Shown here: in pieces, positions 8,009 through 33,256 of the stretch
Layout: the number at the start of each line of letters is the position of its first letter
Position numbering within the stretch: the first letter of the stretch is position 1
Assembly: GCA_003388505.1 (NCBI GenBank)
Contig: QQVO01000012.1
Location: forward strand, 124,001-188,000
Length of the DNA: 64,000 bases
Direction of reading: 5' to 3'
Origin: Planctomycetota bacterium
Lineage (GTDB): Bacteria > Planctomycetota > Planctomycetia > Planctomycetales > Planctomycetaceae
The notes under the pieces: model-generated
What the model saw: only the letters and a program-made list of their open reading frames with translations
What the model was told of the DNA's origin: nothing
Database searches by the model: none
Made by a program: the position numbers and the translations under genes

Positions 8009-8059
8009 AGTAACGAGAGCTCAACTGATGCGTTGATGCTGCGAAGCCGCGAAGCGGCG

Positions 8060-8135
8060 GGAGCATATAGCCGTGAGCGTCAGCTCATGGCACGCGGGTT
8101 GCGACCTGAACGGTGAGCCGCGAAGCGGCGTGAGC
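8060..8135. repeat. REP-like inverted repeat, left flank of transposase
   Basis: Holds GCCGCGAAGCGGCGGGAGCA and then a 22-bp stretch (8069-8090) that is the exact reverse complement of 8663-8684 on the other side of the transposase. A further GAGCCGCGAAGCGGCGTGAG hairpin is at about 8110-8130. Confidence 0.75.
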
Positions 8136-18297: not shown

Positions 18298-18327
18298 GCG
18301 TTTCCAAACGGAAGTTTGGGAACGAGG
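18298..18327 (+). repeat. Palindromic repeat, family B copy 1
   Basis: Arms TTCCAAAC and GTTTGGGAA around a GGAA loop, followed by CGAGG. One arm base differs from the perfect copies. Confidence 0.75.
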
Positions 18328-18491
18328 AATGACGTGTGGGTGTTCTTTCCTGTTCGTCCGAAGACTCACGACTTCGGCTACGTTTCGTTCCGGTTGTTTC
18401 GCCGGCTTGACGACGGCGTTAGAATTGGGTGGACGGTCAGGTTGGTTGCGCTCCACTTTCGGTTAGGTGTCAGTGCGGTCAACTCAGAGGG

Positions 18492-18521
18492 GCGTTCCCA
18501 AACAGAAGTTTGGGAACGAGG
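18492..18521 (+). repeat. Palindromic repeat, family B copy 2
   Basis: Arms GTTCCCAAAC and GTTTGGGAAC (second arm imperfect: AGTTTGGGAAC) around a 4-base loop, followed by GAGG. It ends 33 bp before the start of the DUF1553 gene. Confidence 0.75.
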
Positions 18522-18553
18522 TATTGATTGAGTCCTCGAAAAACCGAGTTGCG

Positions 18554-21037
18554 ATGCATCTTTTGAATCTGACGCGGGCAACCGTGATCTTGTCTGTCTT
18601 GAGCGGCATTGTGCAGGCTGCGGATGGCGGCGTGGAGACAGAGTTTCGTCCCGAACAGATCCGGTTTTTCGAGACCGACGTGCGGCCGCTGCTGGTCGAG
18701 CACTGTTTTGAATGTCACGCCGCGGAGAAGCAGAAGGGGGGACTGCGGCTCGACGCCCGCGAGTTGATTCTCAGCGGCGGTGATTCGGGGCCGGCGATCG
18801 CTGCGGGAAAGCCCGATGAGAGCCTGCTGATTGAGGCGGTGCGTTACGAGTCGTTCGAGATGCCGCCGAAAGGGCAGCTTCCGGAGGAAGACGTTGCGAC
18901 TCTCGTCCGTTGGGTGAAGGCCGGCGCGCCGTGGCCGGACGGAGAGACGATTGCGTCAGCGCGAACTGAGCCCGATATCACGGACGAAGACCGTAACCAC
19001 TGGGCGTACCGTCCGCTGACCGACCCGGACGTGCCCGAGGTGGAGGACGGCGGCTGGTCGCGGACGCCGATCGATCACTTCGTGTACCACAGGCTGTCGG
19101 AAGCAGGTCTCGAGCCGACCGAGGAGGCGGACCGGGTGACGGTCGTGCGGAGGCTCTATCAGCAGTTGGTCGGCTTGCCGCCCGCGCCGGAAGACGTCGA
19201 TGCGTTTCTGAGCGACGATTCGCCTCGGGCTGTGGAGAACCTGATCGACCGTCTGTTGGACAGCCCCCGGTACGGCGAACGGTGGGCGGTGTTCTGGCTC
19301 GACCTGGTGCGCTTCGCCGAGTCGGACGGGTACAAGGCGGATCATCTGCGGCCTGATGCGTGGCGCTATCGCGATTACGTCGTGCGTGCGTTCAACGAGG
19401 ACAAGCCGTACGACCGGTTCGTGATGGAGCAGTTGGCGGGAGATGAGTTGGCGCCGGGAGACCCGGAAGCGCTGGCGGCCACGGGATATTTGCGGCACGG
19501 GATCTACGAATACAACCAGCGTGACGCCGAGGGGCAGTGGCAGGACATGCTCAACGACATCACTGACAATGTCGGTGACACGTTTCTGGCGATGGGGATG
19601 GGCTGTGCGCGGTGCCACGACCACAAGTTCGACCCGATTCTGCAGAAGGACTATTACCGTTTGCAGGCGTTTCTGGTGAATGTTTCGTTCCGTGACGAAG
19701 TTCCGCTGGCGAGCGCGGCCGAGGTTGAACGCCATCGGCAGCAGGAAGCCGCCTGGCGGGAGGCCGCCGCCGACGTGTTGGCCGCAATTGAAGAGATTGA
19801 GGAGAAGCAGCGCGAAAAGGCGGAGCAAGCCACGGTGGCCAAGTTCGCGCCTGAGATCCAGGCCATCTGGGCGAAACCGGAGGAAGAGAGGACATCGTAC
19901 GAGAAGCAGATTGCGCGGCTGGTGTGGCTGCAGGCGATCGGCACGGAAGGTCAGAACGCCTCGAAACTGAGCAAGGAGGATCAGGCGCGGTGGGAGTCGC
20001 TGCAGCAGGAACTGGCTGAGTTTGCGGACCTCAAGCCCGAGCCTTTGCCAAGCGGTATGACTGTCGCTGATACGGGACCGGTCGCTCCAGTCGTGTTTAT
20101 TGACGGCAAGGAGCGACTGGGTGAGATCGAGCCAGGGTTCCCGACGCTCTTCGAGCCGGAGCCGGCGACGATCGAACCGATTCCGGAATTGCCGCAGACG
20201 ACCGGACGGCGGCTGGCGCTGGCACGCTGGCTGACCCGCCCCGATCATCCTTTGACGTCGCGGGTGATCGTCAACCGCATCTGGCAGGAGCACTTTGGAA
20301 CGGGGCTTGTCAGCACGACCAGTGATTTCGGGCGGTTGGGAGAAGCGCCTTCGCATCCCGAACTTCTCGACTGGCTGGCCGTCCAGTTCGTCAACGACGG
20401 CTGGAGTCTGAAGGAATTGCACCGCAAGATCCTCCGTTCGGCGACGTTTCGGCAGACATCGTTGCGAGAGATGCCGGACGCTGCGATGGCGGCGGATCCT
20501 GCGAATCGGTTGCTGTGGCGGTACCCTGCACGGCGGCTGTCAGCCGAGCAGATTCGAGACTCGATGCTCGCCGTGAGCGGCGAACTGAGTCTGACCGAGG
20601 GAGGACCGGGAGTCGGCCCGGACGTCCCGCGACGTGCGGTCTATCTGAGGATGATGCGAAACGAGCGGGATCCGGTGCTGGACGTGTTCGACTTCCCGGA
20701 CCGGATTACCGGAACGGGCGACCGGAACGTGACGACGACGCCGGGTCAGTCGCTGCTGATGATCAACGGCGACTGGGTGCTGGAACGGGCCGATCGATTC
20801 GCCGACCGGGTTGCGCAGGAGATTCCCGGGGCTGCGGATTCTCAGGTCCGGCACGCCTATCGTCTGGCGTTCGCGAGAGAGCCTTCCGACTCGGAACTGC
20901 AGCGGGCGGTGCGGTTTCTTGAAGATCGTGAATCGTCTTCGGTTGCCGGAGAGGCGGGAGACGATCCGCGACGGGAGGCGCTGGTCGACCTGTGCCACGT
21001 ACTGCTCAATGCGAACGAGTTTCTCTACGTCGATTGA
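18554..21037 (+). CDS. Planctomycete cytochrome C / DUF1549 / DUF1553 protein
   Basis: 827-aa exported protein found almost only in Planctomycetota and relatives. A signal peptide (about 1-24, ending GIVQA) precedes a PSCyt1 domain with the haem motif CFECH (about 58-62). DUF1549 (about 150-370) follows, with a second CxxCH-like motif CARCHDHKFDP. A charged coiled-coil-like spacer (about 400-500) leads to DUF1553 (about 545-815). Such proteins are often paired with a DUF1501 gene and are thought to act in periplasmic redox or sugar chemistry; the reaction is unknown. ATG at 18554 is chosen over longer frames because the signal peptide starts there. Confidence 0.9.
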   Translation: MHLLNLTRATVILSVLSGIVQAADGGVETEFRPEQIRFFETDVRPLLVEHCFECHAAEKQKGGLRLDARELILSGGDSGPAIAAGKPDESLLIEAVRYESFEMPPKGQLPEEDVATLVRWVKAGAPWPDGETIASARTEPDITDEDRNHWAYRPLTDPDVPEVEDGGWSRTPIDHFVYHRLSEAGLEPTEEADRVTVVRRLYQQLVGLPPAPEDVDAFLSDDSPRAVENLIDRLLDSPRYGERWAVFWLDLVRFAESDGYKADHLRPDAWRYRDYVVRAFNEDKPYDRFVMEQLAGDELAPGDPEALAATGYLRHGIYEYNQRDAEGQWQDMLNDITDNVGDTFLAMGMGCARCHDHKFDPILQKDYYRLQAFLVNVSFRDEVPLASAAEVERHRQQEAAWREAAADVLAAIEEIEEKQREKAEQATVAKFAPEIQAIWAKPEEERTSYEKQIARLVWLQAIGTEGQNASKLSKEDQARWESLQQELAEFADLKPEPLPSGMTVADTGPVAPVVFIDGKERLGEIEPGFPTLFEPEPATIEPIPELPQTTGRRLALARWLTRPDHPLTSRVIVNRIWQEHFGTGLVSTTSDFGRLGEAPSHPELLDWLAVQFVNDGWSLKELHRKILRSATFRQTSLREMPDAAMAADPANRLLWRYPARRLSAEQIRDSMLAVSGELSLTEGGPGVGPDVPRRAVYLRMMRNERDPVLDVFDFPDRITGTGDRNVTTTPGQSLLMINGDWVLERADRFADRVAQEIPGAADSQVRHAYRLAFAREPSDSELQRAVRFLEDRESSSVAGEAGDDPRREALVDLCHVLLNANEFLYVD

Positions 21038-21626: not shown

Positions 21627-23072
21627 TCAGGAGAAGATCGCTGAGAGCGGTCGGCCGCCGTCCATGATCGGGACGGGGCGGCCGAAGGCGTCGTGAACGC
21701 GGGTCTCGGGCGAAATGCCGAGCGCGCTGAAGATCGTGGCGCCGAGGTCGATGGGGCGGACGGCCCCTTCGATGGGATAGGCGGCGTCTTTGTCAGAGGT
21801 GCCGTAGACAGCGCCTCCCCGGACTCCTGCGCCGGCCAGCACGGCGGGAAAGCTGTAGCTCCAGTGGTCTCGTCCCCAGCCCGCCTTGCCGCGCGGCGTG
21901 CGGCCCATCTCCCCGAGACAGACCACGAGCGTTTCGTCCAGCAGACCGCGGTCCTGCATGTCTTCCAGCAGGGCGGACAACGTCTGGTCGAGTCCGGGCA
22001 GGAGGTGGTCGCGGACGTCGTCGGAGTTGAGGTGACTGTCCCAACTGTAACCGTCGGGGCAATCCCAGAGGACGGTCACGAACCGGGCTCCGGCTTCGAT
22101 CATCCGCCGACCCATGAGCGCCGACTGGCCGAACAGATGGCGGCCGTAGCGATCGCGCAACGCGTCGTTCTCCTGCCTGATGTCGAAGGCGGTCCGCATG
22201 CGGTCGGAGGTGACGAGGTCGAAGGCGCGGCGGCGGCTGTCCTCGAAGTCCTGCACACGGGATGAGCTGTCCAGTTCCCGGCGGGCCGCGTCGAACTGCG
22301 TCAGCAGGCTCTCGCGGCGGACAAGCCGATCGAGGCTGACTTCCGACTGGGCCTGCACGCCTTCGATCTGGAAATTGAGTTCGTCGTCTGTGCAGTCGCG
22401 GAAGTAGGGGTTGTCGCTCGCGTCGCGCTTGCTGATCTTCGTGGCGAGGGCGTTGTAGGAACGGCCGAGCCAACCGGCGTACTGACCGAGGCGGTCGTAG
22501 CCCTGAATGTGCCCCAACCGATTCGGCAGATAGACGTAGCTTGGAAAGTTTCGTCGCTCGGCGAGCGGTCGTTGCCGGTCGCGCTGCTGATCGAGGTACT
22601 CGACGACCGATCCGAACGCGGGCCAGTCGTTTTCGGCGGCGTTGACGCGGGCGGGGCCGCGCTCGGCGGGCGGCATCGGGTGGCCGGTCTGGATGTAGTG
22701 GGCGGCATTGTGGTCGTTCTGTTCGTGCGCGATGGTGCGGATGACGGCGTACTGATCCGACATCGCAGCCAGCTTCGGAAGCTTCTCGCAGATGCGAAGT
22801 CCCGGAGAGCGGGAGGCGATCGGCTTGAACGGTCCGCGGATTTCTGTCGCCGCCTCGGGCTTCATGTCGAAGGTTTCGAGCTGGCTGGGACCGCCGAACA
22901 AGAACAGAAAGAGGACGGATTTCGCCCGGGGCTGGACGACAAGACCGGCGTCTTCGGCCGCGAGAAGCTGTGGAAGGCTCGTTCCCAGGAGACCCGCGCC
23001 CCCGGCCCGCAGCACGTCGCGGCGCGTGGCGCCGCTGCAAACAGTCTGGGGATGTCCGTGGATCGTGAGCAT
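21627..23072 (-). CDS. DUF1501 family protein, Tat-exported
   Basis: 481-aa protein of the DUF1501 family, related to the sulfatase/alkaline phosphatase superfamily. The N-terminus carries a twin-arginine signal (TRRDVLRAGGAGLLG, about 16-30). Typical family stretches are FLFLFGGPSQLETFDMKP, CEKLPKLAAMSDQYAVIRTI and GDNHP-like H-bearing loops (EQNDHNAAHYIQTG), with VCLGEMGRTPRGKAGWGRDHW near the C-terminus. The function is unestablished. It converges on the DUF1553 gene rather than following it in tandem, as these pairs usually do. Confidence 0.88.
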   Translation of the reverse strand: MLTIHGHPQTVCSGATRRDVLRAGGAGLLGTSLPQLLAAEDAGLVVQPRAKSVLFLFLFGGPSQLETFDMKPEAATEIRGPFKPIASRSPGLRICEKLPKLAAMSDQYAVIRTIAHEQNDHNAAHYIQTGHPMPPAERGPARVNAAENDWPAFGSVVEYLDQQRDRQRPLAERRNFPSYVYLPNRLGHIQGYDRLGQYAGWLGRSYNALATKISKRDASDNPYFRDCTDDELNFQIEGVQAQSEVSLDRLVRRESLLTQFDAARRELDSSSRVQDFEDSRRRAFDLVTSDRMRTAFDIRQENDALRDRYGRHLFGQSALMGRRMIEAGARFVTVLWDCPDGYSWDSHLNSDDVRDHLLPGLDQTLSALLEDMQDRGLLDETLVVCLGEMGRTPRGKAGWGRDHWSYSFPAVLAGAGVRGGAVYGTSDKDAAYPIEGAVRPIDLGATIFSALGISPETRVHDAFGRPVPIMDGGRPLSAIFS

Positions 23073-23185: not shown

Positions 23186-24247
23186 TTACTCTTCTGCCTG
23201 ATGAAGCCGGATCTTTTGAAACACGAGGTAGCCGATCTCCTGCGGATCGCCGGTTGTGACCGAGACCGACAATTCGTCCTCGACGGCAACCCGCTCGAGG
23301 GAGAGAGAGAGTTCGCCGGGATCGATTTCCGACAGTTCGAGTTGGATGGCGTCTGTTCCAGTTCCTACAACGAGTGTTCCGGTCCCGGCCACTCCCAGAA
23401 CCTCAATCGTGATGCGGTGCGGCCGGCTATGGATGTCGATCAATCGGAGTTCAATGGAACCGCCGTCGACCGATGACGGGGGGCGGCCTACGTGATTGGG
23501 TTGATGCACGGGAACGTAGGTGGCGTCGTCCCCATCCTGTTCTGCGGTCGCTCGCAGATGGATCGTGCCGGAGTGACCGCGGAGGACGTCGGTCGGTTTC
23601 CAGTCGACGTAGACGAGCGGGTCGAGACCGGCCTCGATCCATTGCTGGAACCACAAGTCAGTTTCGTTCGATTCGGCCAGGTCTCTTGGGGAGTCGGCGG
23701 CGAGAATCTCCGTGATGGAGAGGACGTCGTCGCGGGCTGCGTCTGGTTTCCGGAACACCGTGCCCCAGGTGACGTCAAAGAAATGCCAGTCTTCGTCGTA
23801 GAAGACTTCGACGGCGATGTGACTGGAATTCTCGTCGGGAGTTTCTCCGTGCGGGTAGAATTCCACGCTGCGCGCCTGCAATCCGATGCGTTCGGCCAGA
23901 GCCAGAAACACGGCGACCTGGCTGCCGCAGATCCCGGCGCCCCGAACGAGGCATTCGTCGGGATTCTGCGGCGGTTGCTCACCGGCGCGGATGAGCATCG
24001 AGTAGTTGAGCGGACTGACGCGCGACTGAACGTAGTTCATGACGGCGGTGGCTGCGTAATAGTCATGCGACAAGCCGTGCGGCCGGTCGCCGAAATGTGC
24101 GACCTGCCGCTGAAGCAGCTTTGCGGCCGCATCGACCGGGGACGACTCGGGCTGTTGGCCGGATGCAGGGAGTGAGCGCCCCAACAGCAGTGCGATGCAC
24201 CACAGCAGGTAGACCGGTCGACGTTGACTTGAATCCAGGCTTGCCAT
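23186..24247 (-). CDS. Exported transglutaminase-like protein
   Basis: 353-aa protein with a signal peptide (about 10-30). The transglutaminase-like triad is visible: Cys107 in GAGICGSQVAVF, His143 in SSHIAVEVFY, Asp158 in FFDVTWGT. Such domains act as cysteine peptidases or transglutaminases on peptides or envelope proteins; the C-terminal 120 residues are beta-rich and may be a separate domain. The start MASLDSSQ is preferred, since the longer frame runs into upstream intergenic DNA. It follows the eutBC-like gene by 103 bp on the same strand, so co-transcription is likely. Confidence 0.78.
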   Translation of the reverse strand: MASLDSSQRRPVYLLWCIALLLGRSLPASGQQPESSPVDAAAKLLQRQVAHFGDRPHGLSHDYYAATAVMNYVQSRVSPLNYSMLIRAGEQPPQNPDECLVRGAGICGSQVAVFLALAERIGLQARSVEFYPHGETPDENSSHIAVEVFYDEDWHFFDVTWGTVFRKPDAARDDVLSITEILAADSPRDLAESNETDLWFQQWIEAGLDPLVYVDWKPTDVLRGHSGTIHLRATAEQDGDDATYVPVHQPNHVGRPPSSVDGGSIELRLIDIHSRPHRITIEVLGVAGTGTLVVGTGTDAIQLELSEIDPGELSLSLERVAVEDELSVSVTTGDPQEIGYLVFQKIRLHQAEE

Positions 24248-24350
24248 TGCACCCTTCCGCTGTCCGATAACATGGGTTCCCAACGACCTTACGGCCGGAA
24301 AGTCTCTCACCGAGTTGCCGATTGAAACGATTGCCACGGGCGCGACCGAT

Positions 24351-26645
24351 TCAGTTCGTCATTGCCTTCAGCACGCGAACCGTTTCGGCGGCGCCCTGCT
24401 CGGGAGCGAGCGCCGTAACGGCGATTCCCGATACGACTCTGGTGATGTTGTGGTCGACTTGGCCCGCTTCGTTCCAGACGGCGCCGTCCGGTGCAGTGAT
24501 GTAGACGGAAAACGTGTGGTGACCGGCGCCGGGGCGCTCGCCGATGACGTGCAGGATGGCTCTCGGCCCCGGCAGACCTCCGAAGAGGAGTTCTCCGATG
24601 CGGTAGCCGGCCCGGACGCGCCCCGACGTGACGACGAAGTGTTGCGGAGCGGGGCGATAACCGGCCTGGTTCAGCGCATCGCGAACTTTGGACAGGAAAA
24701 CGTCGAGGTGTCCTTCGTCGGAGATGGCGAGGGCGTTGAGGCCGTCGGAGATCACGATCTGCACGTCGAACTCGCCGGCCTGCTCCCTCCGGACTCGATG
24801 AACGGTCTCGATGGCTGAATCCGAGAGTTGCTCGCCGGACTGCGGATGCAGAATGTAGTCGTTGCGATCGATCGAGAGGGTCGTGAGGGAAACCTGATCC
24901 GGAATGGTTGCCATGAAGGCCGGTGTGAGTTCGGCCCAGATTGACTCCTTTGAATCCTCATAGATGTGCTGGATTTTCGCTGCGAGTGATTCTTCGAGGT
25001 CTCCGTATTGCCGGCCGTAGCCTTCGGCGAGGAAGACGCCGCGGCCGCGGACTTCTTCCATCCGGCGGCGGCCCTCGTTTCGGATGTCTGCATCGGTCCG
25101 TGAATCGCCCTTGCGGCGGCGGTATTGGAGGTAGACCCAGAGTGGATCGCCGAAGTGCTCGGTCGGCCGGTCCTGATCGTCGAGGATGCCGAGTTCGCGG
25201 AAGAAGGCCGTCACCCGGTCGTCGGCGCGAAGCGCGAACTTTTCGCGGAGGCGCACGTGATCCTGGTAGCCGGTGGTGAGGTAGCCGAGCATCGGGTCGA
25301 TCTTGGTCGGCAGCGCCATCAGGTACGCGGGACAGGCCGGCATGATGCGGTCGAGGCACCAGTCGAGGTCTGCGAGCGAAACGTCCATGTGCAGAGTCGA
25401 GCAGACGTCGAGGCCGATGGTCAGACCGTGCAGTTTGCCCATGACGATGTCTTCCAGGCAGCAGCGGACGAGTTGCTCGCGGGTACGGAACACTTCCGGT
25501 CCGATGAAGCCGGCGACGTCGTTGAGATGCACCCACGGCGCGGGGACTCGTCCGGCGTTGCGTTGGGCGTCGGCGACGATCTTCGTCAGAGCGCGGGCGA
25601 AGCCGTACTTGCGGGACTCGTGCAGGACCATGTCGAATCCGTGCGCGTGGCCGTTGGTGAAGTCGGCCCCCTGGCCGGTTTCGAAGTAGAGGCCGAATTT
25701 GCCGGTGCGCTGAGCCGCGTAGTCGCGCATCTTCTCGATGCTGATGTCGAACGTCTGGTTGGCGCCGTCCGTTCCGGCGATGCTCTGGAACCAGAGGGCT
25801 GTGCGGTCGGGGAAGGTGCGTTCCACTTCGGCCTGGACGTCGATATGGGCCAGCACGCAATGGGGGAGGACGTTGTCGATTCCGAAGGTGACCAGCAGAT
25901 CCTGCAGAGTGCCTTCCACCGCTGCGACCGAAGCCGGATCGCTCGAGACGGGGTTTGTCCCGAGAAGGGCATCCCCGACGGCGTAGGACCAGCCGCTGAA
26001 TACCTGCCAGCGGATGTCGTCCAGGTTGTCGGTCGGTGAGTTGGGCTGAATCCGGGCGGAGAGATAGCCTTCGCCGCCGATGTTGCTGTCGGGCAGCGAA
26101 TGAAAGAGTCTGGCGCCGACGGCGATGAGTTCTTCATTCGTCATCAGCTTGACGAGACAGCCGATCACGTCGCTGGTGAGACCGGCCGCGGCCGATTTGA
26201 CGTCATCCTCGGATTGTGTGAGGACGAACTCCTGAAGCTCTCCCAGCGTCAAATTGGAGGATTGGTCATCACGGTCGTTAAATCCGGCGGTGATGAAGCG
26301 GTGCAGGTCGTCTTCATGGACGGGGTGCGCAGCCAGGTCTCCCACGCGGGTGGCGGCGATGAGTGATCGCGCGTTCTGTCGCGACTGGTCGTCCGCTGCC
26401 GCGACGCCGACGATTTCGTCCCCCTCTTTGAAAGGGTTGGCCGCGCCGAGAATCTGCCGGTAGAGCGCGGCATCGAACTGACCGCGCTGCCGGCGAACAT
26501 AGGTGAAGAGGTCTTCGCCGGAGCGAATCCGGTCGACGGTGACACGGCCCGCCGGGGATTGCCCCTTTGCGAGGAGACCGGGGGGCAATCCGGCGATTGC
26601 TCCGCCGGCGGTGAGGAGTTGCACGAATCGTCTCCGGGTGAGCAT
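24351..26645 (-). CDS. eutBC: Fused EutB-EutC ethanolamine ammonia-lyase with Tat-type signal
   Basis: 764-aa single chain. Residues about 40-480 match the large subunit EutB: MTNEELIAVGARL, RIQPNSPTDNL, VLAHIDVQAEVE, LWFQSIAGTDGANQTF, YFETGQGADF (the Glu of the ethanolamine site), GFIGPEVF, MGKLHGLTIGLDVC, YLTTGYQDH. Residues about 628-764 match the small subunit EutC: VISDGLNALAI, GELLFGG, ILHVIGERPG. The normal enzyme is two polypeptides that use adenosylcobalamin to split ethanolamine to acetaldehyde and ammonia. The N-terminus, MLTRRRFVQLLTAGGAIAGL, is a twin-arginine-type signal, surprising for a cobalamin radical enzyme. About 150 residues between the two parts are extra. No other eut or microcompartment gene is present. 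Confidence 0.88.
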   Translation of the reverse strand: MLTRRRFVQLLTAGGAIAGLPPGLLAKGQSPAGRVTVDRIRSGEDLFTYVRRQRGQFDAALYRQILGAANPFKEGDEIVGVAAADDQSRQNARSLIAATRVGDLAAHPVHEDDLHRFITAGFNDRDDQSSNLTLGELQEFVLTQSEDDVKSAAAGLTSDVIGCLVKLMTNEELIAVGARLFHSLPDSNIGGEGYLSARIQPNSPTDNLDDIRWQVFSGWSYAVGDALLGTNPVSSDPASVAAVEGTLQDLLVTFGIDNVLPHCVLAHIDVQAEVERTFPDRTALWFQSIAGTDGANQTFDISIEKMRDYAAQRTGKFGLYFETGQGADFTNGHAHGFDMVLHESRKYGFARALTKIVADAQRNAGRVPAPWVHLNDVAGFIGPEVFRTREQLVRCCLEDIVMGKLHGLTIGLDVCSTLHMDVSLADLDWCLDRIMPACPAYLMALPTKIDPMLGYLTTGYQDHVRLREKFALRADDRVTAFFRELGILDDQDRPTEHFGDPLWVYLQYRRRKGDSRTDADIRNEGRRRMEEVRGRGVFLAEGYGRQYGDLEESLAAKIQHIYEDSKESIWAELTPAFMATIPDQVSLTTLSIDRNDYILHPQSGEQLSDSAIETVHRVRREQAGEFDVQIVISDGLNALAISDEGHLDVFLSKVRDALNQAGYRPAPQHFVVTSGRVRAGYRIGELLFGGLPGPRAILHVIGERPGAGHHTFSVYITAPDGAVWNEAGQVDHNITRVVSGIAVTALAPEQGAAETVRVLKAMTN

Positions 26646-27011
26646 GGTGGTCTCGCTGTTCCGGAAGCTGCGATTGAAGCGGCCGAGCGGCGCGGCCGAT
26701 CGACGACGTTGCGTTCGCTTGCGGCACGCCATGCCCAATTTACCAGTCCACGATTGCTCGGGGAAACAGGAACGGCGGAAATTGCCGGTGTCCCATCGGT
26801 GATTGGGTGTTCGAAATCGGGGCCTGACCAAGCTTGGAACTTCCTGTTGCCGCAACTTTGTGGACCGATTAGTCTCCGGCCCCCTCCCTGTTCCGTCTCA
26901 CAGTTTCCCTCAGCAATTCCATTCTTAACGGTGTCGCCTCGGGCAGAGTGCGTCCACAGCACGCGCATCGCGCTGGCTGTCGACCGTCGCCTGGGTTGCC
27001 GCCCTACCCTC
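26646..27011. other. Divergent promoter region, eutBC and oxidoreductase
   Basis: 366 bp between two divergent genes. No gene, riboswitch or strong promoter is recognisable by eye; in particular I see no cobalamin riboswitch. Confidence 0.4.
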
Positions 27012-33046: not shown

Positions 33047-33072
33047 TGTGCCCAAACTTCCGTTTGGGCACA
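33047..33072 (-). repeat. Palindromic repeat, family B copy 3 (inverted)
   Basis: Arms GTGCCCAAAC and GTTTGGGCAC with a TTCC loop, so opposite in orientation to the other copies. Confidence 0.75.
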
Positions 33073-33083
33073 CGCAACCGAAG

Positions 33084-33114
33084 GCGTTCCCAAACGGAAG
33101 TTTGGGAACGAGGG
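33084..33114 (+). repeat. Palindromic repeat, family B copy 4
   Basis: Perfect 10-bp arms GTTCCCAAAC / GTTTGGGAAC, GGAA loop, followed by GAGGGG. Confidence 0.8.
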
Positions 33115-33141
33115 GTGTGAAGAGTTTCAGGAACGACACGT

Positions 33142-33168
33142 TGTGCCCAAACGGAAGTTTGGGCCCAC
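33142..33168 (+). repeat. Palindromic repeat, family B copy 5
   Basis: Arms GTGCCCAAAC / GTTTGGGCCCAC around GGAA. Confidence 0.75.
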
Positions 33169-33226
33169 CCCACGGGAGTTCGGATGCAGTCGGCATCAGC
33201 AGATTTCAAAGGCGTTCGCAAACGGA

Positions 33227-33256
33227 GCGTTCCCAAACGGAAGTTTGGGAACGAGG
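33227..33256 (+). repeat. Palindromic repeat, family B copy 6, carries the SD of the next gene
   Basis: Perfect 10-bp arms with GGAA loop; its trailing CGAGG continues into GAGGAGGTA, which is the ribosome binding site of the ATG at 33262. A partial arm (GTTCGCAAACGGA) lies just before it. Confidence 0.8.

Follow-up and report, generated by a model that had tools for sequence, protein, structure and literature searches.

A single-chain EutB-EutC ethanolamine ammonia-lyase with a twin-arginine signal that probably works outside the cytoplasmic membrane

The classical ethanolamine ammonia-lyase (EAL) works in the cytoplasm or inside a microcompartment, and its radical cofactor is fragile. In E. 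coli and Salmonella (PDB 3abo), the enzyme is encoded by two genes without an export signal, and it comes with EutA, EutH, and a eut operon. The single-chain protein that we describe here departs from that arrangement, while sharing with it both folds, the catalytic residues, and most of the contacts to adenosylcobalamin (AdoCbl); the identity to E. coli in the EutB part is ~34%. In Acinetobacter baumannii, EAL is functional without EutA or a metabolosome and has been observed at the cell membrane (PMC9426561). The A. baumannii genome, like that of our host bacterium, has a PduO-type adenosyltransferase, but its EutBC consists of two subunits with no signal sequence, adjoins eutH and ald1, and is only ~30% identical to the fused protein.

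Other planctomycetes also have EutB and EutC in one chain (L120-L125). Unlike the form studied here, which we call exported after its predicted location, those proteins have no signal and are read as cytoplasmic, nearly all of their genomes have a full-length EutA, often adjoining, and they fall on the opposite side of the tree with ~40% identity to E. coli EutB. Sequences L120-L126 form a second planctomycete EAL group, mostly single-chain, and mostly accompanied by full-length EutA. As for corrinoid enzymes with Tat signals, reductive dehalogenases (RdhA) bear them (PMC12908670), but RdhA has an unrelated fold and performs corrinoid redox chemistry with iron-sulfur clusters and no adenosyl radical. 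Our literature search, for which subscription journals were mostly out of reach, found no paper on a fused or exported EAL.

The window is the whole stretch of DNA that we analyzed, 64,000 nucleotides long. The fused EAL is a single uninterrupted frame of 764 amino acids on its minus strand (24351-26645, stop included), with an ATG at 26645 and the stop at 24351. A longer frame could start at a TTG at 26855; we prefer the ATG because the additional N-terminus has no counterpart in the relatives. Pfam identifies EutB (PF06751, residues 62-496, 437 bits, E-value 1e-130; window 25158-26462, minus) and EutC (PF05985, residues 557-763, 104 bits, E-value 9e-30, above the Pfam cutoff), so that both domains lie in one reading frame, as the initial annotation had said. 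With NCBIfam, EutB is above the cutoff (568 bits vs. 554), and the EutC equivalog is below it (79.7 bits vs. 230, a curated naming threshold and not a functional feature); by that score, the EutC half is diverged.

The AlphaFold2 model, built from 51 relatives, has a pLDDT of 89.7 and a pTM of 0.87, and matches the overall folds of both subunits. In VIA-align comparisons, residues 45-506 superpose on E. coli EutB (3abo_A, Z 44.9, 2.2 Å, 436 aligned), and residues 499-764 (window 24354-25151, minus) superpose on residues 56-285 of EutC, with 229 residues aligned both to 7xrm_B (Z 23.5, 2.8 Å) and to 5ysr_D (Z 24.0, 3.1 Å). The about 150 extra residues thought at first to join the two halves do not hold up. 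The Pfam domains are 60 residues apart, and since residues 499-764 superpose on EutC 56-285, this "linker" is mostly the N-terminal helical part of EutC itself, diverged; the 266 residues compare with 230 in EutC, which leaves ~37 extra.

One scan of species-representative genomes recovers fused relatives in 80 loci, many of them metagenome bins, at 55-68% identity. Going by their record titles, they come from Planctomycetota, Myxococcota, Acidobacteriota, Gemmatimonadota, Bacteroidota, desulfobacterial lineages, and others; Sinorhizobium and Pararhizobium also have copies (~54% identity), which sit on large plasmids. No relative appears in the viral contigs searched. Some myxobacterial genomes have two fused EALs, one predicted to be a Tat lipoprotein and one without signal: L018 and L039 in Myxococcus sp. 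RHSTA-1-4, L025 and L048 in Archangium lansinium, and L059 and L055 in Pyxidicoccus caerfyrddinensis. In the tree of the EutB part, the fused proteins make one clade (SH-aLRT 100 in a quick search) with a long stem separating it from classical EutB. Judged by sequence, the fused, signal-bearing EutB-EutC is thus a distinct and strongly supported clade that spans several phyla.

Is this clade still an ethanolamine ammonia-lyase? All 101 fused sequences are identical at EutB R160, Q162, N193, P194, Q246, S247, E287, F329, D362, M401, and L402, and at EutC V207 and E228 (E. coli numbering). In the numbering of the fused protein, the key residues are R198, Q200, N231, P232, Q287, S288, E322, F380, D413, M443, M452, and L453 in the EutB domain, and V677 and E703 in the EutC domain. 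A second alignment shows EutB M392 replaced by I in 4 of its 83 sequences. We take R160, Q162, N193, E287, and D362 to be the residues that bind ethanolamine or act in catalysis in the E. coli structures, and, following UniProt, we take the AdoCbl contacts to be EutB P194, Q246, S295, and M401 together with EutC V207, E228, and C258. Five of these seven contacts are kept. S295 has become T in the fused clade, a residue also found in 7 of 20 classical sequences, and C258 has become V or L. Among the classical sequences, the substrate-contact D362 is A or G in 7 of 20, probably the L120-L126 group. The initial annotation had left room for the cobalamin residues to be missing; most of these contacts are present and invariant, as are the contacts to ethanolamine.

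The protein could still be exported with the same AdoCbl radical chemistry, and have another extracellular amino alcohol as its main substrate. The long stem of the clade speaks for this, as do clade-wide changes close to the catalytic E287 (S292-A293 to A-D, and A296 to N), the lack of EutA, and the lack of a eut neighborhood. Against it, every residue taken as an ethanolamine contact is invariant, and of the positions conserved within both the fused and the classical groups, only 5 differ between them while 70 are the same. We consider a different main substrate unlikely, although it is the least unlikely of the alternatives.

The first 26 residues, MLTRRRFVQLLTAGGAIAGLPPGLLA (window 26568-26645, minus), fit the Tat consensus, with TRRRFVQ, a hydrophobic stretch, and LLA, and the signal is shared with the relatives. 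Residues 1-31 have a pLDDT below 50 in the model, as expected for a signal. Our strict rule for a Tat signal, applied along with visual inspection, asks for RR, a start within 40 residues, and a hydrophobic region without acidic residues. It accepts 83 of 101 distinct relatives (82%), none of the 20 classical EutB sequences, and 2% of shuffled N-termini. After inspection, 86 of 101 relatives have a credible RR signal, since the RR of L069 is spurious, and L003, L050, L066, and L079, which have a clear RR, were added; this final count leaves out the RK motifs as well as L069, both accepted by a looser rule. The twin-arginine signal proposed at first is clear, and across the phyla it is either conserved or exchanged for a different export signal.

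Myxobacterial members have RR...LLGC or similar, which is a predicted Tat lipoprotein signal with a lipobox (the lipoprotein label comes from the looser rule, and it is itself loose outside Myxococcota). Sinorhizobium and Pararhizobium members have Tat signals such as ISRRDLLLIAG. Two Bacteroidota-type sequences, L057 and L067, have RK in place of RR (SRKFFLK or SRKDFLK), and in L068, L071, and L081, from desulfobacterial-type bins and one further bacterium, a Sec-type signal replaces the Tat signal. The N-termini of L060 and L108 are cut by contig ends. Eight of the 101 have no signal, namely the myxobacterial L039, L048, L054, and L055, at least three of which are second copies, and the Gemmatimonadota L061, L063, L065, and L069; the signal was lost at two places in the EutB-part tree.

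These eight sequences suggest that the enzyme can also work inside the cell, and that a cytoplasmic form can exist. Could the host protein be an ordinary cytoplasmic EAL with an unused Tat-like N-terminus? Classical EAL is cytoplasmic, after all. But the RR signal persists in several phyla despite divergence elsewhere in the N-terminus, none of the classical controls has a signal, and where the Tat signal is swapped, it is for a lipobox or a Sec signal and not for random sequence, which is the pattern expected of selection for export. We regard an unused signal as very improbable, the least probable of the alternatives that we have considered. The envelope location put forward by the initial annotation finds good support in this comparison of sequences.

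We have also searched the 6.8-Mb host genome with profiles. Its single EutB match is the fused gene, and the genome has no EutA, no EutH, and no Eat permease; as first noted, no other eut gene lies nearby either. It does have TatC (202 bits), a PduO-type adenosyltransferase, and methylmalonyl-CoA mutase, and therefore both AdoCbl and the Tat pathway should be available. No cobalamin riboswitch reaches the gathering score in the window or in five loci. One small-RNA match, Acido-Lenti-1 (window 8045-8090, minus), is exactly at its gathering score of 37 bits.

Of 170 genomes in the host's family, 70 have the exported form only, 38 classical EutB only, 2 both, and 60 neither. The Eat permease (TIGR00908, E-value up to 1e-40) is found in 0 of 70, 23 of 38, 1 of 2, and 17 of 60 of these, respectively. 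The contrast between exported-only and classical-only genomes (Fisher test, p = 8.5e-14) concerns Eat as the importer and is confounded by ancestry, and outside the family most classical genomes also go without Eat. By genera, the comparison becomes 1 of 18 for the exported form vs. 9 of 15 for the classical (p = 0.0015), and wherever a genus includes genomes of both kinds (codes 25, 48, and 51), Eat occurs in genomes without the exported form. Eat directly adjoins eutB in several of the classical genomes (e.g., G087, G089, and G092). For the other families of the class, the numbers are 0 of 17 exported vs. 14 of 71 classical (p = 0.06), and in other phyla Eat is present in 0 of 29 genomes that host the fused protein.

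EutA is above the cutoff in 9 of the family's genomes, with no exported-only genome among these 9, and EutH is nearly absent across the family. Seven of the 70 exported-only genomes have no match to the PduO-type adenosyltransferase, and four of those seven are less than 90% complete. In the other phyla, 24 of the 25 genomes with EutA matches have weak and partial ones (~45-130 profile positions), which we read as other actin-like ATPases; the remaining genome, a Nannocystis MAG, has a full-length EutA.

The lack of a reactivase bears on another alternative, in which the exported protein makes no catalytic use of AdoCbl and instead binds, stores, or senses corrinoids, or is an apo-enzyme. The three relatives with Sec-type signals would agree with it, and so would the light sensitivity of a cofactor placed at an exposed site. 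However, R160, E287, and D362 are invariant in 101 sequences, and binding alone would not need them. A non-catalytic role thus seems doubtful to us, somewhat more so than a change of substrate.

The gene neighborhood adds little. The gene directly downstream of the fused EAL encodes a transglutaminase-core protein that starts with a plausible Sec signal (window 23186-24337, minus). Such an exported neighbor had been offered as support for an envelope location. The gene is indeed present, but it adjoins the fused EAL in the host genome only, with no homolog near 100 other loci, and we do not use it as evidence of location. No conserved operon partner survives scrutiny: the first recurrent clusters turned out to be shadow frames inside the EAL gene itself, and the others either belong to families common in planctomycetes or do not extend beyond near relatives. 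Beyond near relatives, no conserved neighbor in the 100 other loci points to ethanolamine.

Other features of the window deserve mention in their own right. A PSCyt1/DUF1549/DUF1553 protein (18467-21037, plus) and a DUF1501 protein (21627-23072, minus) are a common planctomycete pair, and the DUF1501 protein has its own Tat-like start, ATRRDVLRAGG. A near-palindromic 20-mer, CCCAAACGGAAGTTTGGGAA, occurs six times where zero copies would be expected by chance, in two clusters (18303-18516 and 33049-33251). The copies lie partly within predicted frames, and this dispersed repeat produces false peptide ends of the "PKRKFGNE" kind.

The explanation that we consider probable is that of an AdoCbl-dependent ethanolamine ammonia-lyase exported by Tat and active outside the cytoplasmic membrane, where no importer would be needed. 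Thanks to the fusion, one signal would be enough to export the two halves of the active site together. The chain would fold in the cytoplasm and probably bind there the AdoCbl that the PduO-type adenosyltransferase supplies, and Tat would then move the folded protein to the periplasm, to be anchored as a lipoprotein in Myxococcota. Periplasmic ethanolamine, for instance from phosphatidylethanolamine, would be converted to acetaldehyde and ammonia. We propose that, since these products are uncharged and can diffuse into the cell, an ethanolamine permease becomes unnecessary, and no acetaldehyde would be released in the cytoplasm.

Some observations count against this explanation. AdoCbl is light-sensitive, and the exported enzyme has no reactivase at hand. 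The changes at EutC C258 and EutB S295, the seven exported-only genomes without a PduO-type match, and the lack of neighbors related to ethanolamine weigh on the same side. The Sec-type members (L068, L071, and L081) do not fit well with a simple export of cofactor-loaded protein: if they are exported unfolded, AdoCbl is bound outside or not at all. We are evenly divided on a broader reading, in which an entire multi-phylum family of AdoCbl radical enzymes would work outside the membrane, export would replace permease, reactivase, and microcompartment in the use of ethanolamine, and the Sec-type members would point to AdoCbl binding outside the cytoplasm.

If the explanation that we favor is true, this would be, to our knowledge and as far as the searched literature goes, the first AdoCbl radical enzyme outside the cytoplasmic membrane. 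A reaction thought to be intracellular only would probably run, in these bacteria, outside the cell membrane. It would be an alternative answer to the acetaldehyde problem, and it would account for a possible use of membrane-lipid ethanolamine by many environmental bacteria without a permease. How the cofactor gets loaded and stays active outside the membrane would then become a question, as would, for the Sec-type members, the place where the corrinoid would bind. The family includes genetically tractable members in Myxococcus and Sinorhizobium, in which direct tests are possible.
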